Below the pieces are notes generated by a model, which saw nothing but the letters and a program-made list of their open reading frames with translations, did no database searches and was not told the origin of the DNA. A stretch of 64,000 nucleotides of DNA, taken from assembly GCF_000426345.1 (NCBI RefSeq), contig NZ_AUFE01000027.1, positions 1-64,000 on the forward strand. Direction: 5' to 3'. The translations under genes were made by a program, and so were the position numbers. Below are positions 51,603-62,152 of the stretch, one piece after another. This DNA is from Cupriavidus phytohabitans. Its GTDB lineage: Bacteria > Pseudomonadota > Gammaproteobacteria > Burkholderiales > Burkholderiaceae. Position 1 is the stretch's first letter. Each line of letters begins with the position of its first letter.

Positions 51603-51785
51603 ATCCTGTTTGCGCAACGTTGCGCAACGCTCTTGTGCATCGTCTCCCAACAGGGGATCGGAGCCATCCGGAACGGTGTCCGAGACTTCTGCCCAATCTT
51701 CTTCGGTCAGTCGTTGCGCGGCACGCGGCATGACCTGTTTTTCCTCAGTGGAGAGATGATTGCGATAGTAAGCAAGGTACATGGC
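51603..51785 (-). pseudogene. Hemerythrin-domain protein, C-terminal remnant
   Basis: On the minus strand the frame reads MYLAYYRNHLSTEEKQVMPR AAQRLTEEDWAEVSDTVPDG SDPLLGDDAQERCATLRK. The HLxxEExxVMPxAxxxLxxxDW pattern is the last helix pair of hemerythrin HHE proteins. The N-terminal part is missing: the match stops where the intron/IS remnant begins (about 51785-51795), so that insertion probably truncated the gene. Confidence 0.65.
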
Positions 51786-51794
51786 GGCGGCTGC

Positions 51795-52239
51795 TGACGA
51801 TGCCATCTGTCACTGCAAAAGTGAAGCGCATGCGCGTTCACTCAAGCAGGAACTGGAGGTGCGGATGGCGGAATGCTTGCTGGAGCTTCATCCAGAGAAA
51901 ACCAAGATCGTGTACTGCAAAGATGCAAACAGACGAGGAACCTATCCGGTCCTGCGCGGCTGGATTCAGTACTACGGGCGGTTTCACCGGTCTGTGCTTA
52001 TCAATGTGCTACGCGCAATCGATTACGCGCTGGTGCACTGGGCACAACGGAAATACAAAACCCTTCACGGTCGCAAAGCGCGAGCGTGGGCATGGCTGAA
52101 CGGCGTCAGAGCTCGCCAGCCTGGCCTGTTCCCGCATTGGTCGTTGGAGGGAGGTTGAACGATAGGAGCCGGATGAATCGAGAGATTCACGTCCGGATCT
52201 GTGAGAGCGTGGCGGTGAGATTCCTCTGCGCTACTCGAC
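51795..52239 (+). mobile_element. Group II intron 3' end with reverse transcriptase/maturase remnant
   Basis: The coding part reads ADDAICHCKSEAHARSLKQE, LHPEKTKIVYCKDANRRGTY, and then the maturase end LRGWIQYYGRFHRSVLINVL, YALVHWAQRKYKTLHGRKAR. In full-length proteins these two blocks are far apart, so there is an in-frame internal deletion, and the N-terminal RT domains are gone. The intron's domain V/VI RNA follows directly, and the intron seems to end at ...CTACTCGAC near 52239. Confidence 0.85.
52166..52199 (+). ncRNA. Group II intron domain V
   Basis: GAGCCGGATGAATCGAGAGA followed by TTCACGTCCGGATC folds as the classic 34-nt domain V hairpin: an outer GAGCCGGA/TCCGGATC stem, an internal bulge and a GAATC-GAGA-GATTC tip. 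It lies just downstream of the maturase frame, at the expected distance from the 3' splice site. Confidence 0.85.
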
Positions 52240-52457
52240 ACAACGCCCCAACGGAAAGCTTTTTTAACAGTCTGAAGAATGAGCGGGTACATGCTACGCG
52301 CTACCGGACACATCAGGAAGCGAAGGCGGACTTGTTCGAATACGTCGAGGTGTTTTATAACCGCAGTCGTCGTCATTCGTCGCTCGGCTTTGTCTCTCCG
52401 GCTCAGTTCCTGCAAGACTGGATCAAGGCTCGGCAGACCAAGGATGTGGCTGCATAA
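52239..52457 (+). pseudogene. IS3-family transposase OrfB, C-terminal remnant
   Basis: The frame reads NAPTESFFNSLKNERVHATR YRTHQEAKADLFEYVEVFYN RSRRHSSLGFVSPAQF. This is the last third of an IS3 DDE transposase, with the catalytic Glu in TESFFNSLKNE. It starts exactly at the intron 3' end, so it is the downstream exon of a group II intron inserted into an IS3 element. The upstream exon is not present. Confidence 0.85.
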
Positions 52458-52833
52458 CCCGGGGCCTCTGGAAGGCGAAAAACCGGGGGAACCTCAACTC
52501 GCTAGTGAGCCACCAACGGAACCTAGGTCAAGGGAAGTTGTTGAGTTCTTGGAGCAACTCGGGCTCTCGGAGTTTGAACCCCAAGGTTTTTAGCGCTCCC
52601 GAGCGGAGGTGGCAGTTTTGCTGGCGAAGCGGTGGCACTGTTGCCTCGGTATGCGGGAATTGCCCTTCCGGCGCCACCGCACGCACTGCACCTCAAAGGG
52701 CTGCATCGTCCAAGTTTGCCGAACCCTGCGTACAACCCGTGACGGCTGCCCAATCGGTATCTGCAGTCTTAAGCTGTTGCACAGGAGCGGCCAGGCGCTG
52801 TTTCTACATGCCTATTTCAAACTGGAGAGGACA
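52458..52833. other. Non-coding stretch after the IS3 remnant
   Basis: The first about 50 bases may be the right end of the IS3 element. I see no gene in the rest. It leads into the ring-cleavage dioxygenase, whose promoter is probably here. Confidence 0.4.
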
Positions 52834-53784
52834 ATGTCAATGTTCAAGGGATTTCATCACCTGACCGCCGGCGTGAGACACGCGCAGGAGGATGTGGACT
52901 TCTACGTCAAGCTGCTCGGGCAGAGCCTCGTGAAGAAGACCGTGCTTCTCGACGGCGAGGATCCGATCTACCACCTTTACTACGGCAACGCGAATGGCGA
53001 TCCGGGGACCCTGGTGACGTCGTTCCCGTTCCGCCAGCGGGGGGTCATGGCGCGTCAGGGATCGGGCCAGGTGCGGGTCATCAACTACTCGGTCCCGACG
53101 GGCTCGCTCGAGTTCTGGCGCAGCCGCTTCGATGCCATGGACGTGCCGTATGACAGCGAGATCGTCGAGCGCTTCGGAGAGCGCCGCCAGCGGTTCCAGC
53201 ATCCGTGTGGCATCGAGTTCGATCTCGTCGAAACCGATCTCGACCCGCGACCGGCTTGCGTGGCCAGCGATATCCCCGAAGTCCATGCCATCCGTGGCGT
53301 GCACAGCATCACGCTGTCGCTGCGGGATGTCGCCGAATCGATCCGCTTCATGGGCGAAGCGATCGGTTTCCAGAACGTAGGCCAGGCGGGACCCTACTAC
53401 CGCTTCGAGACGTACACCGGCGGCCCGGGCACGGTCGTCGAGTTCCTGCATGAGCCGGACCGGCACCAGGGCTCGTCGATCTACGGCGAAGGCACGGTCC
53501 ACCATGTGGCGTTCGCGGTGGACACCGTGGAACAGCAAGCCATCCTGAAGGAGAAGCTGTTTGCCCTTGGCTACATCGATACGTCCGAATCGGTGCACCG
53601 CAACTATTTCCGCTCGATGTACTTCAAGATGCCCGGTGGCGTGATGTTCGAAGCGACGACCACCGACATCGGCTTCGCGATCGACGAAGCGCCCGGCCAT
53701 TTTGGCGAGGAGTTTCAGCTCCCGCCCTGGCTGGCGGATCGCAAGGACGAACTGCTGGGCCGGCTCGAGCCCATTTCTGCATGA
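52834..53784 (+). CDS. PcpA/LinE-like ring-cleaving hydroquinone dioxygenase (VOC superfamily)
   Basis: A 316-aa two-module VOC dioxygenase. The N-terminus FKGFHHLTAGVRHAQEDVDF YVKLLGQSLVKKTV parallels PcpA of pentachlorophenol degraders. The metal ligands appear as His in GFHHLT, His in GEGTVHHVAFAVD and Glu in PGGVMFEATT. YHLYYGNANGDPGTLVTSFP is also shared with PcpA. Such enzymes open (chloro)hydroquinones to maleylacetate or acyl-chloride derivatives, fitting the maleylacetate reductase and LinD-like GST nearby. AGAGGACA precedes the start. The stop overlaps the WrbA-like gene (ATGA). Members of this family in Bacillus (MhqO/MhqA) also act on quinol stress, so detoxification is an alternative. 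Confidence 0.85.
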   Translation: MSMFKGFHHLTAGVRHAQEDVDFYVKLLGQSLVKKTVLLDGEDPIYHLYYGNANGDPGTLVTSFPFRQRGVMARQGSGQVRVINYSVPTGSLEFWRSRFDAMDVPYDSEIVERFGERRQRFQHPCGIEFDLVETDLDPRPACVASDIPEVHAIRGVHSITLSLRDVAESIRFMGEAIGFQNVGQAGPYYRFETYTGGPGTVVEFLHEPDRHQGSSIYGEGTVHHVAFAVDTVEQQAILKEKLFALGYIDTSESVHRNYFRSMYFKMPGGVMFEATTTDIGFAIDEAPGHFGEEFQLPPWLADRKDELLGRLEPISA

Positions 53785-54428
53785 CGTTGCCGGGGATCGA
53801 TATGCGGAAGCCGAAAGTACTGATCGTTTTCTATTCACGGAACAGCTCGACCGAGATGCTGGCCAAGGCTGTCGCCGAGGGCGCCCTCGAGGCTGGCGCC
53901 GAACTGCGCGTTCGGCGTGTGCGGGAGTTCGTTGGCCCCGACGTCATGCGGCAGGCGCCGGGCTGGCTCGAGAACGCCACGGAGATGAACGCGAAATACG
54001 AGGCGCCGACCGAAGCCGATGCCGAGTGGGCCGACGCGATCGTGTTCGGCACGCCGACGCGGTTCGGGACGATCTCGGCCGAGCTCAAGGCGTATATCGA
54101 CGGGCTCGGCGGGCTCTGGTTCGCGGGCAAGCTGAACGGTAAGGTGGGTTCTGTGTTCGGCACGACGTCCTCGCGCCATGGCGGCAATGAAGCCACGCTG
54201 CTGGCGGCCTACACGCCCATGGCGCACCTGGGCCTGATCATCGTGCCGCTGGGCTATGCCGACGCGGCAATGTTCAAGGCCGGCACCCCGTACGGCGCGA
54301 CTCACGTCTCGCACCGTGACGCCGTGAAGCCCGACAACGATCACCTGGCGGTTGCCCGGTTTCAGGGCCGCAGGGTGACGACCGTCGCGCGTGCCTTGCA
54401 CGTCCAGCCGCAGCCCGTGGCAGCCTGA
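53781..54428 (+). CDS. wrbA: WrbA/PnpB-like NAD(P)H:quinone oxidoreductase
   Basis: A 215-aa flavodoxin-fold protein. FMN-binding parts are VLIVFYSRNSSTEMLAKAVA, IVFGTPTRFGTISAELKAYI and FGTTSSRHGGNEATLLAAYT. WrbA proteins reduce benzoquinones to hydroquinones by two electrons; PnpB is the version in p-nitrophenol pathways. Coupled by ATGA overlap to the hydroquinone dioxygenase, it would supply that enzyme's substrate. An internal ATG at 53802 is an alternative start. Confidence 0.88.
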   Translation: MTLPGIDMRKPKVLIVFYSRNSSTEMLAKAVAEGALEAGAELRVRRVREFVGPDVMRQAPGWLENATEMNAKYEAPTEADAEWADAIVFGTPTRFGTISAELKAYIDGLGGLWFAGKLNGKVGSVFGTTSSRHGGNEATLLAAYTPMAHLGLIIVPLGYADAAMFKAGTPYGATHVSHRDAVKPDNDHLAVARFQGRRVTTVARALHVQPQPVAA

Positions 54429-54447
54429 AAGTAAAAGCCTGATAGAA

Positions 54448-54480
54448 AAATGGGCGGAGACTCACAGTCTCCGCCCATTT
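54448..54480. terminator. Strong hairpin between convergent genes
   Basis: AAATGGGCGGAGACT and AGTCTCCGCCCATTT form a perfect 15-bp stem with a CAC loop. It lies after the WrbA gene and before the minus-strand GST remnant, so it likely terminates transcription from both sides. Confidence 0.85.
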
Positions 54481-54489
54481 CCTGCATCC

Positions 54490-54779
54490 GCACAGGCCGA
54501 TGACGCGATGCACATCGCCAAGGGCGAACGCGCATCCCGCGAGATAGGGAGCTGGTGCAAAACCCGGTGTGCGGTCCAGCGCCTTCAACACGCCTTCAGC
54601 TATGGCGTGCAGTGCGCTGGAATACGGTATCGCGGCGGAGCACAATGCCGCCTCGTTCCTTCGCGATCCTGGTGCGACAGGTGGCAACAAGTCCTGCGTC
54701 GCCGCCATGGTTGACGATCATGGACTCGAGCGCCGCGATCTTGTAATCGTGGACCGCTTCCATGACCGTCTTGAGCGCG
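54490..54779 (-). pseudogene. LinD-like glutathione transferase remnant (left cluster copy)
   Basis: Minus-strand frames joined across shifts read ALKTVMEAVHDYKIAALESM IVNHGGDAGLVATCRTRIAK ERGG, then QRTARHS(stop), then VLKALDRTPGFAPAPYLAGC AFALGDVHRVIG. This follows the C-terminal half of the intact GST at 60897 (ALKTAMETVYDYKIKALEAM, YRAKIAKERGGKSV, FSLGDVLWGVN). The first about 195 codons are absent: the preceding dioxygenase-family gene stops one base before the remnant begins. Frameshifts and a stop show decay. Confidence 0.85.
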
Positions 54780-55688
54780 TCACTCCGCGGACCGGGCGTT
54801 TCCCTGTCCGCGGGCGTGCGGACACACCGCAGGCGGATCGCCGATGAAGCCGCGCGCAGACCAGAGTTCCGGGAACGGGATCTCGTTCATGGTCGGCAGG
54901 AGCCAGGCAATGCCCTCGGTGCCGAAATAGGCTGGCCGGGCGCCGAACGTCCGGCGCGTTGCCATCAGGTGCAGGTGCTTCCACGCGGAGAATCCCTCCG
55001 CGATATCGGCCAGCGTCTCGCCGAGCTGCTGAAGTTCGCCGTGATTGTCCGGGCTGGCATAGACGTCGCGCCAGACGTTTTCGACCGCCTTGTCCGGCAT
55101 GTAGGGCACACTGAAATCGCGGTCGAGTACCACCGCCGGTACGGCGAAGCCCTTGCGGCTCAGGTGGGCGAGGACGTCGTCATACAGGCTCGGCTCTGCC
55201 AGCACCTTGCTGAGTTGTTCCCAGCGCCGGGGTTGTGGCAGGAAGTGCTGCAGGTGCTCCTCCTGCTTGATGCCGAGCAGGTAGACCATCTGCCGGTACG
55301 TCCAGCCCTGGAGGGCGGTGTCCTTGCCGTACTTCGGGCCAACGCAGGACAGGATGGCCAGCAGGTCGACCGGCGTCATCCACGCGATGGAGCGCCATGT
55401 GGCATTGAGCGGCTCGTGGTGGGCGACGACGCGCCGGAGCGTCCGGCAGGCTCCGGTCAGGTCATCGGCACGCAATTGCGCCTGCGCGGCCTGTATTTCC
55501 TTGATGATCAGCATCCAGTACAGCTCGGACACCTGCGCCGATACGATCCAGGCATGCTCGCCGGGATGATCGCTGACCGGGCGCTGCAGCGAGTGGAGCA
55601 CGTCTGTCTGTAACCAGTCACTGTATGGCGTATGTCCGGCTGGGGTTCCGGCCGGCGCCGGGGATGCGGGCTTGACGGTATCGTTCAC
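54780..55688 (-). CDS. Tryptophan 2,3-dioxygenase-family protein
   Basis: A 302-aa all-helical protein of the tryptophan/indole dioxygenase superfamily. Visible parts are TPYSDWLQTDVLHSLQRPVS, HAWIVSAQVSELYWMLIIKE, MTPVDLLAILSCVGPKYGKD TALQGWTYRQMVYLLG, and EGFSAWKHLHLMATRRTFGA then YFGTEGIAWLLP. WKHLHLMATR places a His where the haem-ligand His of TDO lies. The loop after it differs from true TDO (which has GTGGSSG). GTG start follows AGGAGACCAAA. The last residues (HARGQGNARSAE) may be altered because the gene was joined to GST debris. Function in a hydroquinone cluster is unknown. Confidence 0.8.
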   Translation of the reverse strand: MNDTVKPASPAPAGTPAGHTPYSDWLQTDVLHSLQRPVSDHPGEHAWIVSAQVSELYWMLIIKEIQAAQAQLRADDLTGACRTLRRVVAHHEPLNATWRSIAWMTPVDLLAILSCVGPKYGKDTALQGWTYRQMVYLLGIKQEEHLQHFLPQPRRWEQLSKVLAEPSLYDDVLAHLSRKGFAVPAVVLDRDFSVPYMPDKAVENVWRDVYASPDNHGELQQLGETLADIAEGFSAWKHLHLMATRRTFGARPAYFGTEGIAWLLPTMNEIPFPELWSARGFIGDPPAVCPHARGQGNARSAE

Positions 55689-55723
55689 TTTGGTCTCCTA
55701 GTGGTGGTGGGGTCAGGCAAGTT

Positions 55724-55861
55724 TTATGGAACGGCGACGGTCCGCAGCATCGATTCCATCTGCGTCAGGCCTGTCGCGGTGATCTGCCGACTGGCCAGGG
55801 CATCGAACGCGTGGCGCAGGCCGACGGGATGCGGGAAGCTGTCGGATGGCCGGCCGGCCAT
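55724..55861 (-). pseudogene. Amidase remnant with internal deletion (left cluster copy)
   Basis: A 45-codon frame reads MAGRPSDSFPHPVGLRHAFD ALASRQITATGLTQMESMLR TVAVP(stop). Its first part matches the intact amidase (MGLRNALDALATRQITATAL) and the end QMESMLRT matches that protein's last residues (QMELMLRTGTAHKR). Everything between, over 400 codons, is deleted in frame. Its ATG overlaps the maleylacetate reductase stop (TAATG), showing the old gene order. Confidence 0.85.
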
Positions 55862-56979
55862 TACCACAGGCTCTCCAACAGCGCATCCAGCTTCGTGCCG
55901 GCATCCTCGCCAAGGTCGCCAACCTCGGAGGGATAGTTCTGCTTGAGCAGGGCCGCCATCTCGGGAAGCTTCGCCCGATCGAAGTCGAGGTCGCCGAGCC
56001 GGCTCGGCAATTCCAGTGCGTCCACGGCTGCCTGAATGCGGTCAGCGAGGAATGCGGCGGGCGGGCGGCCGCCACGGTCCGTGGAGAAAATCTCGAGCTT
56101 TCGGCCATAGGCGCCGGCACAGGCGCGGATGACGGGCGCCAGCGCAATGCACGATGTCACGCTGTGCGGTACCCCGAACGTCCCGCCGAGAATATGCCCG
56201 ATGCGATGGCTCAGCCCGTAGATGACCGAAGCAGGACAGAAGTAGCACTGCCATGCGGCGAGCTGAAGCTGCAGCAGGTCGTCGGTCGACACGTGGCCGC
56301 CCGCGATGGCCTCGCGAGTTTCGAGCTTGCGCGGCCACTTCTCCAGCACGGCAAGGAAGCGCTCCACACCCCTGGCGGCCAGGATGGCGTGAGGGTGATC
56401 CACGTTGACCCGGCGCATGCCTTCCACCGCATGGTCGATCCCCTTGATGGCCGAACTCAGCAGCAGCATACGTGGCGTGTCGACAATCATCCGGGGATCG
56501 ATCACCACCAGCCTGGGTGTCGTTTCGCGCACGGCATAACTGCGCTTGAACTTCTGGGGACCGTCCGTTTCCGTCACGCCGAAGTAGTGGGAGAACTCTG
56601 AACCCGACAGGGTCGTCGGAATCGCGGCAATGGGCAGATAGCGGCCTGTCTGCTGGAAATGCTGGTAGGAGACTGCCTTTGCGGCGTCGAGTACGGAGCC
56701 GCCGCCGAGGGCGATGATCGATCCCGCATTGGCCTCGATGCATGCGCGCAGTCCGTCGCGCACGGCGAAATCTGGCACATGCGGCGGCAGGCCGGTGAAG
56801 GTGCCCACGCTGTCGCCGATGGCAGGCTGCAGGTGTTCACGGTTCAATGCCTCAAGGAATTCCACCGTGAACGTCATCGGACGGCGGATGCCGTAGTTTC
56901 CCATGGAGGGGGCGACGGTTTTCAGCACGTCGTGCCCCCAGACAATCTCTTCCTGCGGCAAGCATTTCAACTGGTTCAT
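55861..56979 (-). CDS. Maleylacetate reductase (iron-type alcohol dehydrogenase superfamily)
   Basis: A 372-aa NAD(P)H-dependent enzyme reducing maleylacetate to 3-oxoadipate. Motifs: SIIALGGGSVLDAAKAVSYQ, IAAIPTTLSGSEFSHYFGVT, GIDHAVEGMRRVNVDHPHAI and HRIGHILGGTFGVPHSVTSC, as in TfdF/PcpE/LinF reductases. It receives the product of the PcpA-like dioxygenase encoded on the other side of the cluster. It is divergent from the nitroreductase. Its first 34 residues are homologous to the N-terminus of the amidase at 59365, which marks a lost second copy. Confidence 0.88.
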   Translation of the reverse strand: MNQLKCLPQEEIVWGHDVLKTVAPSMGNYGIRRPMTFTVEFLEALNREHLQPAIGDSVGTFTGLPPHVPDFAVRDGLRACIEANAGSIIALGGGSVLDAAKAVSYQHFQQTGRYLPIAAIPTTLSGSEFSHYFGVTETDGPQKFKRSYAVRETTPRLVVIDPRMIVDTPRMLLLSSAIKGIDHAVEGMRRVNVDHPHAILAARGVERFLAVLEKWPRKLETREAIAGGHVSTDDLLQLQLAAWQCYFCPASVIYGLSHRIGHILGGTFGVPHSVTSCIALAPVIRACAGAYGRKLEIFSTDRGGRPPAAFLADRIQAAVDALELPSRLGDLDFDRAKLPEMAALLKQNYPSEVGDLGEDAGTKLDALLESLW

Positions 56980-57238
56980 TCCACCTCTCCACCATATTTT
57001 CGTATGCGATCGGGGCTCCGATCCCGAGTAGGAAGATAGGCGAATCGCGTTCGCGCGTGGGCGCAGGATTGGGGAACGGAGCGTTCAGGAAATTGGACGC
57101 CGGACGGTGCGGAGGGGCGCCTGTCGTTCGTTGTTTCCGAACGGAGCTTTCAAGTATTGCCATCTTCACAAGACAGGGGACCTGTCTATGATCCTTTTCA
57201 CCGCAGCGACCCCCAACCACGAGAACGGAGACATGAAG

Positions 57239-57922
57239 ATGGAGGCAATCCAGATTACTGAAGCGCTGATTCGCGGACGCCACAGCAAGCGCGGCTTCCT
57301 TGACCAGCCGGTGCCGATCGAGACTGTCAGGGAAATCCTGTCGCTTGCGAAATACGCACCGAGTTCGAGCAACACGCAACCCTGGCGCTGCTACGTGCTG
57401 ACCGGAGAGGCTCGCGAGAAGATTGCGGGAGCCGCGGTCGAAGCGTATCGTGCCGCGCCTGAGGGACTGGTGCCCGATTACCCGTTTTTTCCCAAGGAAT
57501 TGCCGGCGCCATTCTCATCGCGCTTCAATACGTTTCGCGGGATGCTCGGCGATGCACAGGGCGTGCAAAGGTGCGATATCGCCGGGCGCCGGCGAGACGT
57601 CGAACGGCAGTTCCGGTTCTTCGATGCGCCCGTGGGACTGATCTTCACCATGGACCGGCGCCTGGAATGGGCCAGCTTCATCTGCTACGGGTGCTTTCTC
57701 CAAAACATCATGCTGGCCGCGCGCGCCCGTGGGCTGGACACCTGCCCGCAGCAGATCTGGTCGCTGCAATCGGCGGTGCTTCGTGAAGGCCTCGCCATTC
57801 CCGACGGGGAGATGATCGTGGCCGGAATGTCACTCGGCTATGCGGACAACAGTATTCCGGAAAACAACATGGAACTCCGCAAGCTGGAACTGGACGAGTT
57901 CGTCTCATTCGTCGATCGCTGA
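57239..57922 (+). CDS. Nitroreductase-family flavoprotein
   Basis: A 227-aa FMN-dependent nitroreductase: IRGRHSKRGFLDQPVPIETV REILSLAKYAPSSSNTQPWR (FMN-binding R-S/R-x-F and PSSxNxQPW), YGCFLQNIMLAARARGLDTC PQQ and VAGMSLGYADNSIPENN. This is the PnbA/NfnB type acting on nitroaromatics or quinones. The start is ATG 57239 (GGAG eight bases upstream) or ATG 57233. It is divergent from the maleylacetate reductase across about 260 bp. It could feed amino- or hydroxylaminophenols into the hydroquinone route. Confidence 0.88.
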   Translation: MEAIQITEALIRGRHSKRGFLDQPVPIETVREILSLAKYAPSSSNTQPWRCYVLTGEAREKIAGAAVEAYRAAPEGLVPDYPFFPKELPAPFSSRFNTFRGMLGDAQGVQRCDIAGRRRDVERQFRFFDAPVGLIFTMDRRLEWASFICYGCFLQNIMLAARARGLDTCPQQIWSLQSAVLREGLAIPDGEMIVAGMSLGYADNSIPENNMELRKLELDEFVSFVDR

Positions 57923-58275
57923 CACCTGAAGCCGTCCAGGTCGCTCGTTGGCCTGGAAAAAGCGCGAGGCAGCGATAGCCATCGTTAGCCAGTTTCGGCA
58001 AGTTGTGGCTGTCGAATCGTTAAGGCAGGCGCGCTTCACCGGCCGATGCGGGTGCCCTCAGCCGAAAAACAAAATATAGAGACGGAGGGCTTTCCTCTCT
58101 GATCGGGATGCTGTCGGTGGCGCACCACGCATTGACGGTCGTTGGGCGAGCGGGCGCCGGCCACGGCAATGGCGGTCATTGGGGCGCCCATCATGGCACT
58201 GCGCGCACCCGTTGCAGTACCATGCGATGGAAAGCACACACCATTGGCCAACCCAACCGCTACCAAGGCAGCGAC
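57923..58275. promoter_or_regulatory. Upstream region of the LysR gene
   Basis: These 353 bases between the nitroreductase and the LysR gene contain no gene. They lie at the centre of the inverted pair of hydroquinone-type clusters and probably carry the LysR promoter. I see no strong repeat or hairpin. Confidence 0.4.
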
Positions 58276-59187
58276 ATGCTGGACCTGAAAGACGTTTTTC
58301 ACTTCGTGCAGGTTGTCGACCGCGGTGGCTTTACGTCTGCCAGCAACAGCCTGGGGCTGCCCAAGTCCACCTTAAGTCACAGGGTCAAGGAGTTGGAGGC
58401 TTCGCTGGGCGTTCGCCTGATCAACCGGACCTCACGCCAGTTTACCTTGACCGACGTAGGCGCTGAGTTCTACCAGTACGCTGTCGCCTTGCTGCAGAGC
58501 GCCGACGTCGCGGAACAGGCGATGCGCCAGAGGCTCCTCGAACCCAGCGGGATTATTCGCGTGACGGTGGCGGTCGAGCTTGCGCAGTTTGCGCTGCGCC
58601 AGGTCCTGCCGACGTTCCTGAGCAACCATCCCAAGGTCAGCATCGTGGAAATCGCCACGGACAGGCTCGTCGACGTTGTCGGCGAGGGCTTCGACCTGGC
58701 GCTGCGCGGACATACCTCGGCACTGCGGGATTCCAACCTGGTCCAACGGCCCATTGTCAGGGCGCCATGGTACCTGTTTGCGGGTGCCGACTACCTCGAA
58801 CGGATGCCACGCCTGGAGGAACCGGAGCAACTTGCATCCCATGCCATCGTCTCGATAGTGCGCAAAGGGCCGCTGCAGTGGCAACTTCGCGGCCCCCAAG
58901 ACAGGCTCGTCACCGTCCCGATCGAGCCAAGATTCCAGAGCAACAGCATGATGTCCCTGAAGGAGGCAGCCTGCGCCAACGTTGGGGTGGCAGCCCTGCC
59001 CGGGTATATCTGCCGGTCCGAGTTGCAGGCTGGCGTGCTGCGGCAGGTACTGCCGGGCTGGATCGCCGCGGATGCGCGCATCTCCGCCCTCATGCCCTAT
59101 CGGACCGGACTGCTTCCCGCGGTGCGGTCGCTGGTCGATTTCCTCGCCATAGAGCTGCCCAAGGTCACCGCGTTCGACGGCCGCTGA
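58276..59187 (+). CDS. LysR-family transcriptional regulator
   Basis: A 303-aa LysR protein of the large CrgA/PerR-like group: MLDLKDVFHFVQVVDRGGFT SASNSLGLPKSTLSHRVKEL EASLGVRLINRTSRQFTLTD VG, with effector-domain VRVTVAVE-like segment and DLALRGHTSALRDSNLVQRP. The ATG at 58276 follows AAGGCAGCGAC. It precedes the amidase-GST genes on the same strand and is the obvious candidate regulator for both cluster copies. Confidence 0.9.
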   Translation: MLDLKDVFHFVQVVDRGGFTSASNSLGLPKSTLSHRVKELEASLGVRLINRTSRQFTLTDVGAEFYQYAVALLQSADVAEQAMRQRLLEPSGIIRVTVAVELAQFALRQVLPTFLSNHPKVSIVEIATDRLVDVVGEGFDLALRGHTSALRDSNLVQRPIVRAPWYLFAGADYLERMPRLEEPEQLASHAIVSIVRKGPLQWQLRGPQDRLVTVPIEPRFQSNSMMSLKEAACANVGVAALPGYICRSELQAGVLRQVLPGWIAADARISALMPYRTGLLPAVRSLVDFLAIELPKVTAFDGR

Positions 59188-59364
59188 CCCCGCACTACCT
59201 CTTGCCCCTCCAATGCCACGCGGGCCACGCCCCGTGGGGCCCGCCGGGCGTTCCATATTCATGGACGCTGCGTTCGGCGCCAGCCAGCTTCCAAGGCCGA
59301 GCTGATCAACTATCGTTTCCAACCAGGGATAAGCCATCCGCAACGTCATCCTGGAGTGGAATAC

Positions 59365-60831
59365 ATGAATCAGCTGAACTGCCTGCCACAAGACGCGATC
59401 TTCTCGGGCCACGACATACTTCCGCCGGCTGTCGCGTCGCTCGACCAGCACGGCATCCGGCGCCCATCCCAAACAACGGCCCCGCATGCCATGGGCTTGC
59501 GCAACGCGCTGGATGCCCTTGCCACGCGGCAGATTACCGCGACGGCGTTGACGGAGCAGGCCCTCGAGCGCGCGGAAGCCAGCAAGCGGCTGCACAATGC
59601 ATTTGCGGCGATCGATTGGGGCCGTGCCCTGAAGGCGGCCGCGGAAAGCGATCGCCGCTACGGCGAAAGCCGGCAGCGGCCACTGGAAGGACTGCCAATT
59701 GCGGTCAAGGATCTGATCGACACGCGGGGCATGGAGACCCGCTACGGTTCCGCAGCCTATCTCGGCCATCTGCCCACCACCGATGCCGACATCGTGAAAG
59801 CACTGGTGGAACGCGGCGCGATCATCATCGGCAAGACGACGACCCACGAATTCGCGTGGGGCGTGACAACCGCCAGCGCAAGGTTTGGCGATACCCTGAA
59901 TCCGCTGGACCCTGCGCGCATACCCGGGGGTTCCAGTGGTGGCGCCTCGGCGGCAATTGCGCACGGTGCCATCATGGCGTGCGTGGGCACGGATACCGGC
60001 GGCTCCGTTCGGATTCCCGCAGCGCTGTGCGGCGTCGTCGGATACAAGCCCACGCTCGGCACGTTATCCACGCGTGGCGTGTTCCCCCTGGCGCCCACTT
60101 GCGATCACGTTGGCCTGCTCGGCAAGCAGGTCGATGACGTGCTGTTGCTTGCCGACGCCATTGACATCAAGGTTCCCGAAAGCGATGCGTGGCTGTCCGC
60201 ACGGCTGGGCGTCATTCGTGACATCGCACCGGTTCCACTCAGTCCGGAAATTGCGGCGGCATTTGACGGCGCGCTGAAGCAGCTGGCGCAAGTCTTTTCC
60301 TGTGTGAACGTCAGCACGTCTGGTTTGTTCGATGCGGTATTCGGTGCCTTCGCGAGCATCGTCCTGATCGAAGGCGGCATCGAGCATTTCCGCCGAAACG
60401 ACTGGCACCGTATCTCGACGCACTACAACCCGGAAACCGTCGACCGGCTGAAACGCGCCGAAACCATGGACCTGCGCGCCTATGCGGCGGCCCAGCAGGT
60501 CAGGCGAGATTTCACGGCAAGGCTGCATGAGGTGATGTCGACGGTTGACTATCTCGTGCTGCCGACATGCCCATGCACCGCACCGCATCTCGATGCCGGC
60601 ACCGTCAGCATTGGCGCCTGGACCGGCACGGTCCGCGAGGCGCTAATGACCTATACCGCACCGTTCAATGTCGCGGGGTTTCCTGCCATTTCGATTCCCC
60701 TGGCGATCGGCGAACGCAGCCTTCCCGCTGCTTTGCAGATCGTCGCGAAGCCCGGCGACGACGGTGCGCTGCTGCAGATTGCTCAGCAGATGGAGCTGAT
60801 GCTGCGAACGGGCACCGCCCACAAGCGTTGA
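59365..60831 (+). CDS. Amidase-signature hydrolase with a maleylacetate-reductase-derived N-terminus
   Basis: A 488-aa amidase. The Ser-cisSer-Lys triad is visible: Lys in GLPIAVKDLIDTRGM, GSSGGASAAIAHGAIM with cis-Ser, and the nucleophile in GTDTGGSVRIPAALCGVVGY. The first 34 residues (MNQLNCLPQDAIFSGHDILP...QHGIRRP) are not amidase sequence: they match the N-terminus of the maleylacetate reductase at 56979 (19 of 34 identical by eye). The true amidase start is near SQTTAPHAMGLRNALDALAT. The ATG at 59365 has GGAG eight bases upstream. The fusion is in frame, so the enzyme may still be active. Confidence 0.88.
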   Translation: MNQLNCLPQDAIFSGHDILPPAVASLDQHGIRRPSQTTAPHAMGLRNALDALATRQITATALTEQALERAEASKRLHNAFAAIDWGRALKAAAESDRRYGESRQRPLEGLPIAVKDLIDTRGMETRYGSAAYLGHLPTTDADIVKALVERGAIIIGKTTTHEFAWGVTTASARFGDTLNPLDPARIPGGSSGGASAAIAHGAIMACVGTDTGGSVRIPAALCGVVGYKPTLGTLSTRGVFPLAPTCDHVGLLGKQVDDVLLLADAIDIKVPESDAWLSARLGVIRDIAPVPLSPEIAAAFDGALKQLAQVFSCVNVSTSGLFDAVFGAFASIVLIEGGIEHFRRNDWHRISTHYNPETVDRLKRAETMDLRAYAAAQQVRRDFTARLHEVMSTVDYLVLPTCPCTAPHLDAGTVSIGAWTGTVREALMTYTAPFNVAGFPAISIPLAIGERSLPAALQIVAKPGDDGALLQIAQQMELMLRTGTAHKR

Positions 60832-60858
60832 CGCCAATCCCACAACCAGGAGACAACG

Positions 60859-60900
60859 ATGAACGATAGCGCCAAACCTGAACCAGGAAACCAGCAATGA
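60859..60900 (+). pseudogene. 13-codon stub of the tryptophan-dioxygenase-family gene
   Basis: AGGAGACAACG is followed by ATG and the peptide MNDSAKPEPGNQQ, then TGA, which overlaps the GST ATG (ATGA). The intact family gene on the other side has AGGAGACCAAA, start, MNDTVKPASP. The stub is therefore the 5' end of a deleted copy. It keeps a ribosome site and overlaps the GST start, so it may now act as a translational leader for GST. Confidence 0.75.
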
Positions 60901-61940
60901 GGCATGAAAAATTGATGAATATGGCGGCCGGTGCCCGCGCCGCCATCGCGGACCGCGCGCGCATCTCGCTCGTGGGTAGTGACGCCAACCCGCGCTTCGA
61001 ACTGTTCCACGCGGCCAGCTCGCTGTGCTCGCAGAAAGTGCGCACGGTTCTGTTCGAGAAGCAGTTGCCGTACCGTTCGAACGATATGGTGATCCTCGGT
61101 TCGATGGGTCCGGATGGCCTTGTTCCGGCCGAGCACTACCATCCGCCCTACGTCCGACTGCGGATGCTTGCAGGCCGGGAAGTTGGGCGGGAACTTGTCA
61201 GCGGCTATAGCGGGCGTACGTCGGTGGAGACCGAAGGCTTTGACCCCTGCGCGGTCCCGTTGCTTGTGGACTACGAGGCTGGCCGTGTCATTGCCGATTC
61301 CAGACGGATCTGCTGCTATCTCGATGCGGTGTCGCGCGATCCCGTTCAGCTCGTGCCGGAGGACGCCGATGTGCGTGCCCAGGTGATGCAACAGGTGAGC
61401 ATCGTCGATCAGATCCCGAACGGCACCTTGCTCTATGGCTTTCATCCCGACGCCGACCTTCGGCCCGAAGCGCTCAAGACGGCCATGGAAACGGTCTACG
61501 ACTACAAGATCAAGGCGCTCGAAGCCATGATTGATGCCAATGCCGACGATGCGCAGCTCGTTGCGGCCTATCGCGCGAAGATCGCGAAGGAGCGGGGCGG
61601 CAAGTCGGTCCGCCACGATGCCGCATTTCAGCGCGCCGCACGTCGGCACGTCGCGGGCCTCTTGACGGACCTCGACCATGCGCTTGGTTCGTCGACACCG
61701 TACCTCAGGGGGGAATCATTCTCGCTCGGCGATGTGCTGTGGGGTGTCAACCTGGTCCGGATGGCTTACCTGGGGCTTGCGTCGATGTGGGAAAACCTGC
61801 CCAACGTCGAGCGATATGTTGATGCGCTGACCAAGCGTCCGTCCCTGTGTACCGAAGCGGTCCAGGCTACGGTCGATTCCATGCCGCCTTCGCGCTACAT
61901 GCATGTCATTGCGGGCTGCGGGGAGCCGGTGCCGGTGTAG
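60897..61940 (+). CDS. LinD-like glutathione transferase (reductive dehalogenase type)
   Basis: A 347-aa GST. The thioredoxin-like domain reads PRFELFHAASSLCSQKVRTV LFEKQLPY, closely matching LinD (2,5-dichlorohydroquinone reductive dechlorinase; PRFELFHxxxSxCSQKVR). Further shared segments are SVETEGFDPCAVPLLVDYEA GRVIADSR and LLYGFHPDADLRPE. The Cys of SLCSQKV is in the place of the catalytic Cys/Ser. The C-terminal helical domain ends FSLGDVLWGVNLVRMAYLG. It probably uses glutathione to remove a substituent from a hydroquinone. Translation starts inside the stop of the 13-codon stub. Confidence 0.85.
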   Translation: MRHEKLMNMAAGARAAIADRARISLVGSDANPRFELFHAASSLCSQKVRTVLFEKQLPYRSNDMVILGSMGPDGLVPAEHYHPPYVRLRMLAGREVGRELVSGYSGRTSVETEGFDPCAVPLLVDYEAGRVIADSRRICCYLDAVSRDPVQLVPEDADVRAQVMQQVSIVDQIPNGTLLYGFHPDADLRPEALKTAMETVYDYKIKALEAMIDANADDAQLVAAYRAKIAKERGGKSVRHDAAFQRAARRHVAGLLTDLDHALGSSTPYLRGESFSLGDVLWGVNLVRMAYLGLASMWENLPNVERYVDALTKRPSLCTEAVQATVDSMPPSRYMHVIAGCGEPVPV

Positions 61941-61978
61941 TCAAAGCCGGTGCCATTGGCAGGAGGGTAATTTGCGGA

Positions 61979-62152
61979 GGCCTGAATCTCCGCCGCGCGG
62001 GAGTGCTGCAGCGCACCCTTCCCCCAGAAGACCTATCACTCAAGGAGTGGGACAAGGTGGCCCGCATCGATTTGCGAGGCACCTATCTCTGCTGCAGGCA
62101 GTTCGGTTCCGGGATGGCAAGGCGTGGACGCGGAGCGATCGTGATGCGACTG
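61979..62152 (+). pseudogene. Short-chain dehydrogenase fragment
   Basis: One frame reads NLRRAGVLQRTLPPEDLSLK EWDKVARIDLRGTYLCCRQF GSGMARRGRGAIV, the middle of an SDR from the NNAG region to just before the catalytic Ser (NIASxxG). The NNAG motif itself is corrupted and both ends are missing. It follows the GST gene and is probably a remnant of the same old operon. Confidence 0.65.

Follow-up and report, generated by a model that had tools for sequence, protein, structure and literature searches.

How does a catabolic pathway come to be carried by two half-operons that run in opposite directions, each of them holding scraps of the genes that are intact in the other? The locus that raises this question lies in a stretch of 64,000 nucleotides of Cupriavidus phytohabitans (contig NZ_AUFE01000027.1, positions 1 to 64,000), hereafter the window. 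A sequence-only reading had interpreted it as an inverted duplication of one operon, with the gene order maleylacetate reductase (MAR), amidase (AMD), tryptophan-dioxygenase-family gene (TDO), and LinD-like GST, followed by complementary degeneration of the two copies. This interpretation is partly supported: the complementary loss stands, whereas a shared descent of both arms from a single operon lineage is not supported by identities, trees, and AU tests. The features of the locus are as follows, with coordinates in the window.

52654..61994, no strand: block common to the split loci (blastn of 45-75 kb against the compared loci)
52831..53784, plus: VOC ring-cleaving dioxygenase, MnpC/PcpA-like (PF00903; 4huz, 2,6-dichlorohydroquinone dioxygenase, E 4e-72)
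53781..54428, plus: WrbA-like quinone oxidoreductase (NCBIfam TIGR01755, 174.5 bits, over the cut-off; Pfam FMN_red)
54510..54779, minus: left GST relic, 3' part, decayed (blastn; no codon-position bias, p 0.88)
54780..55688, minus: tryptophan-2,3-dioxygenase-family gene (TDO), survivor (PF03301; TIGR03036, 237 bits, under the cut-off of 390.7)
55724..55861, minus: left amidase relic, 45-codon frame with an internal deletion (blastn; no codon-position bias, p 0.96)
55861..56979, minus: maleylacetate-reductase-like iron-ADH gene (MAR), survivor (PF00465; single genome match)
57084..57097, minus: left palindrome, one mismatch to TCCA-N6-TGGA, 118 nt upstream of MAR
57233..57922, plus: nitroreductase, MnpA-like (PF00881; 79% to the C. 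pinatubonensis copy)
58088..58128, no strand: site of the Phenol_MetA_deg gene of the other seven split loci, missing here
58276..59187, plus: LysR regulator of cluster type B2 (PF03466/PF00126; clade with A5-1_B2 and G255, 100/99.7)
59252..59265, plus: right palindrome TCCA-N6-TGGA, 113 nt upstream of the MAR scrap (exact in all eight split loci)
59365..59472, plus: right MAR scrap, in frame with the amidase (92% to B2 MAR)
59488..60831, plus: amidase (AMD), survivor (PF01425; one genome match at E<=1e-120)
60859..60900, plus: right TDO scrap, 13 codons, its stop overlapping the GST start
60897..61940, plus: LinD-like GST, survivor (PF13409; one genome match at E<=1e-80)

Arm-against-arm blastn confirmed that each of the opposite arms contains remnants of genes for which the other arm has an intact copy. 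The left GST scrap (54781-54606) matches 61467-61642 at 77% identity (132 bits, E 2e-33), the left amidase scrap (55835-55760) matches 59481-59556 at 79% (66 bits, E 8e-14), and the AMD 3' end together with the TDO start (55763-55669) matches 60786-60878 at 69% (36.5 bits, E 1e-4). Set against chance similarity, these three of the four matches exceed 31 bits, the top score of 73 control stretches taken from the window, and the fourth, that of the MAR scrap, lies within the control range (25.6 bits, 65% over 101 nt). The MAR scrap is nonetheless real, because it matches the MAR start of another cluster type, B2, at 92% over 106 nt and its start-bearing form is present in 8/8 split loci, much shortened in C. 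yeoncheonensis. The sizes given earlier hold, with 45 codons for the left amidase scrap, 13 for the right TDO stub, and about 36 for the N-terminal reductase piece, for which 34 had been claimed; the left GST is decayed, as described. Each gene is kept once, with reciprocal loss. Genome-wide counts covered MAR, AMD, GST, and TDO, and the first three have a single match each (E<=1e-30, E<=1e-120, and E<=1e-80, respectively), while TDO is represented by the present copy and one other match at 32%. A search for a second nitroreductase relic before LysR found none, and no second VOC relic was seen in the compared loci.

Selection on the survivors of both arms is supported by the distribution of variable sites, which are concentrated at the third position of codons in MAR, TDO, AMD, and GST (p 5e-9 to 5e-20). 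No codon-position bias was present in the left amidase and GST relics. The dN/dS values of the eight survivors range from 0.12 to 0.29; as sums over pairs, they are not independent.

The order MAR-AMD-TDO-GST, predicted from the scraps for related genomes, was found on one strand in 17 different loci among those fetched, 15 of them from Cupriavidus and two from Paraburkholderia. This count rests on gene order, and one of the loci, UYMMa02A, has several of the genes in frame-broken pieces. In intact-order loci, LysR lies next to MAR in type B and on the far side of VOC in type A. The annotated locus of C. pinatubonensis HN-2 has wrbA-VOC-nitroreductase divergent from LysR-MAR-AMD-TDO-GST, and loci of Variovorax, Pseudomonas, Massilia, and Rhizobium contain many of these genes in other orders. 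Of 398 genomes of the family, 25 have the TDO protein at E<=1e-60, every one a member of this genus; among 60 genomes of the genus, AMD was present in 24 (E<=1e-120) and GST in 22 (E<=1e-80).

An in-place inverted duplication of one such operon, with complementary degeneration, would account for the inverted arrangement with reciprocal relics and for the fact that each of the four genes in the intact order is represented on both arms. Against it, the arms differ in lineage. The left-arm proteins of the window are 93-97% identical to those of the intact LEh25/G301 clusters, compared with just 74-77% for the right AMD and GST and 73-74% for LysR. In trees, the left-arm genes of nine loci form one clade (100/99) that adjoins the LEh25/G301 lineage (100/100). 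The right AMD groups with YR651, Ccamp, and two Paraburkholderia (Ppip and Patl), the right GST with A5-1_TDOGST, Clah, and Cpin, and LysR with A5-1_B2 and G255 (100/99.7). AU tests reject a single clade of the right arm and the left-arm lineage for GST (p 0.00078) and LysR (p 0.00002), and with moderate strength for AMD (p 0.0127). The phylogenies of genes within one cluster therefore conflict, which is the mark of a mosaic operon.

The relics can be placed in the same way. The left GST relic of C. necator A5-1 has 86-87% identity with G301/LEh25, compared with 74-75% for right-arm GSTs. Six of the eight left amidase relics measured are nearest to the LEh25/G301 lineage, by a few points across some 102 nt; those of C. 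lacunae and C. yeoncheonensis are unplaceable, and the G316 relic, outside these eight, is too short to measure. On the right arm, the TDO scrap of Burkholderiaceae bacterium 16 matches Clah at 40 of 46 positions, A5-1_TDOGST at 39, and the left lineage at 31-32. The right MAR scrap of the window has 65% identity to its own left MAR versus 92% to B2 MARs. The 3' end of the right MAR is retained in G316 and C. yeoncheonensis. The first 105 nt of the G316 scrap share 98 positions with B2 and 65 with its own left MAR, whereas of its last 48 nt up to 39 agree with type-A MARs and 28-29 with B2; this 3' piece separates type A from B2, not the left from the right lineage. Since a 5' part of one cluster type is joined to a 3' part of another, the right MAR scrap marks a splice, and not decay alone. 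The arms thus appear not to be copies of each other but to have been spliced from at least two related operons. With a right-arm LysR and MAR scrap of another cluster type in addition to the difference in lineage, we regard in-place duplication as highly improbable.

A very old duplication that preceded the divergence of the cluster lineages would also leave arms that look unlike each other, provided that all relatives lost copies independently. Trees alone do not exclude old paralogy, and cluster types A and B do occur together in A5-1. Many parallel losses would be needed, however, and a right-type AMD of more than 90% identity was found, among the 60 genus genomes, only in those with the split locus. 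The nearest groups also differ among the parts of the right arm, and we therefore consider such a duplication unlikely.

Instead, it is very probable that a mosaic pathway of the mnp type arose by merging, lost genes reciprocally, and spread as one block with two half-operons. The arms of different lineages, the LysR and MAR 5' end of a third type, and the rejections by AU tests all point to diverged operons that merged, lost genes reciprocally, and then spread as a block that reached Paraburkholderia. In this process, an mnp-type (3-nitrophenol/aminohydroquinone) pathway would have been rebuilt from homologous but diverged operons. The left arm with VOC, WrbA, TDO, MAR, and nitroreductase would derive from a Cupriavidus-type cluster like LEh25/G301. 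LysR, the control region downstream of it, and the first MAR codons would have come from the second cluster type, B2, and the right-arm AMD and GST, with the MAR and TDO relics, from a further lineage. Redundant genes would then have been lost, in part by internal deletion and in part by decay, until one copy of each was left in the window. The outcome would be two co-induced half-operons that are passed between species as one block.

The source operons were probably three, a number that is uncertain because the nearest group is a different one for each of AMD, GST, and LysR. We propose, more tentatively, a three-donor composite in which half-operons, regulator, and operator come from different clusters and were trimmed to one of each gene before spreading across genera. 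The MAR head, with its operator, start signal, and first codons, would have been reused as the head of the AMD-GST half-operon under a single LysR.

The block and its layout are shared. The split layout was found in eight loci, namely those of the window, Burkholderiaceae bacterium 16, P. elongata (whose contig stops before WrbA and VOC), P. panacisoli, C. lacunae, C. yeoncheonensis, Cupriavidus sp. KK10, and G316. By blastn, the left edge of the block is at 52654 in five compared loci and at 52663 and 52700 in two, and the right edge is at 61994 in three loci and 61942 in four. The flanks of the window match no other compared flank; the right flank is partly common to bacterium 16, C. lacunae, C. 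yeoncheonensis, and KK10. In bacterium 16 and P. elongata, the last wrbA codons and a second LysR follow 3' of the right GST, the LysR of P. elongata matching by half only. In the plasmid collection, one of four matching records (KK10) spans at least 80% of the block. Hosts of split loci are scattered on the gyrB tree (at least six changes when partial loci are counted and KK10 is left out), and two hosts are Paraburkholderia with locus proteins 93-97% identical to those of the window; the block therefore moves between genera.

Several further observations were made around these loci. Just left of the block, at 51781-52457 of the window, a group II intron maturase and an integrase-core transposase are both present as fragments. 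A Phenol_MetA_deg outer-membrane gene lies between nitroreductase and LysR in the split loci and is missing from the window alone among the eight. C. necator A5-1 carries only a left arm, and at other places on this contig it has a type B2 cluster and also a TDO-GST pair; its right arm is either lost or was never present. In G214 (L104, 8642-9155), an isolated 3' piece of the right-arm GST reaches as far as the right edge of the block; it is apparently all that is left of a split locus since lost.

The palindrome TCCA-N6-TGGA, present on both arms, offers a direct test of how a spliced pathway remains under one regulator. With at most one mismatch it occurs upstream of MAR in 44 of 50 loci (3.2 by chance) and in exact form in 29 of 50 (0.09 by chance), a comparison in which the shuffles overstate the certainty, because the motif was noticed in the regions in which it was counted and the loci are related. 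Its position is mostly 93-153 nt upstream of MAR, and it is missing there in 6/50 loci, C. pinatubonensis among them. The exact form was absent upstream of AMD (0/33), GST (0/27), VOC (0/48), WrbA (0/19), and LysR (0/49), and present upstream of TDO in one of 37 loci and of nitroreductase, which is often divergent from MAR, in ten of 37. The one-mismatch form also exceeds chance at TDO (6/37 versus 1.8) and GST (6/27 versus 1.5). A scan for T-N11-A boxes yielded nothing consistent. Within the split loci, the left palindrome at -118 has one mismatch in the window and is exact in six of the seven others, and the right one, at -111 to -113 before the MAR scrap, is exact in all eight. Because it is found on both arms, a single LysR could drive both halves. 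The palindrome is a candidate operator, for mnp-type clusters in general as well, to which LysR may bind, and its presence on both arms favors their co-regulation.

The right-arm stubs may themselves be functional, with AMD made as a fusion to the MAR scrap and GST translationally coupled to the TDO scrap, which would explain why the start signals of the stubs persist. The start of the MAR scrap is in frame with AMD in seven of eight split loci and the scrap ends on the AMD start in the eighth, the TDO scrap is in frame with GST in two of eight and has its stop on the GST start or no more than about 8 nt from it in the other six, and the palindrome precedes the MAR scrap in every case. The MAR leader has a dN/dS of 0.35, like the same codons in intact MAR genes, over a very short stretch. 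Simulated deletions, however, yield such outcomes in about 57% of cases for MAR-AMD and 91% for TDO-GST, few junctions are independent, and the MAR leader has no codon-position bias (p 0.50). Frame retention was accordingly ruled out as a sign of selection, and functional stubs are possible but on balance doubtful. AMD may be read from the start of the MAR scrap or from its own ATG; the open frame between them is not above chance.

In the mnp cluster of C. pinatubonensis JMP134 and Cupriavidus sp. CNP-8, as described in the available part of the report, MnpA is the nitroreductase, MnpC the dioxygenase, MnpD the LinD-like protein, MnpE the amidase, MnpF the maleylacetate reductase, and MnpR the LysR regulator, and the hydroxylaminophenol mutase MnpB of CNP-8 is on another contig (PMC5604080). 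The same set (nitroreductase, VOC hydroquinone dioxygenase, LinD-like GST, amidase, MAR, and LysR) is found together here by Pfam and identity. The encoded pathway would comprise reduction of the nitro group, a rearrangement that gives aminohydroquinone, opening of the ring by VOC, and release of ammonia by AMD, which would hydrolyze the amide formed when the aminohydroquinone ring is cleaved, before the MAR step; GST may carry out a dechlorination.

TDO is the remaining member. A role as tryptophan 2,3-dioxygenase is not supported, as the protein scores 237.3 bits on the NCBIfam equivalog TIGR03036, below the cut-off of 390.7, and has no distal His. In 36 counted alignment rows of TDO-like relatives (three further rows lie outside this count), the haem-ligand His is conserved throughout, and the distal position, which is His in the solved TDO 2nox and which we take to be His55 of XcTDO, is always Ala or Val. 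Judging by its score and these residues, the TDO-like protein is of a separate subfamily. It is not discussed in the CNP-8 paper, since the word "tryptophan" is absent from the text available (PMC5604080).

The closest known system is the mnp cluster itself, as the locus of C. pinatubonensis HN-2 corresponds to the mnp genes in the available description of CNP-8 (PMC5604080). The window has the same gene set, and its proteins are 64-83% identical to those of the C. pinatubonensis cluster; however, LysR-MAR-AMD-TDO-GST is one run there, whereas two opposite arms with relics are present here. Spacers before TDO resemble AMD 3' ends of another lineage in C. laharis (L120, 8621-8822), C. pinatubonensis (L147, 9819-10000), and the TDO-GST pair of A5-1 (L121, 9934-10000), most strongly in A5-1, and whether the scores exceed those of shuffles depends on the reference end used. 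These resemblances hint that the classic mnp cluster may also be patched.

Gene displacement in situ reportedly gives rise to mosaic operons (Omelchenko et al. 2003). The split locus likewise joins operon genes of differing ancestry by transfer, but here the replaced genes persist as relics and the replacement is divided between two facing half-operons. The tfd catabolic clusters are mosaic like the split locus and include hybrid clusters made by recombination, and no reciprocal relics between two facing halves are described in the available part of that source (PMC10531765). Among the literature matches listed, the portions available contain no report of the split cluster or its operator. A mosaic operon is a known kind of event, usually inferred from conflicting trees only, and the relic record here is unusually complete. 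Because eight loci, at differing stages of decay, still show scraps of the genes that were discarded, the merging of redundant pathways can be traced gene by gene.
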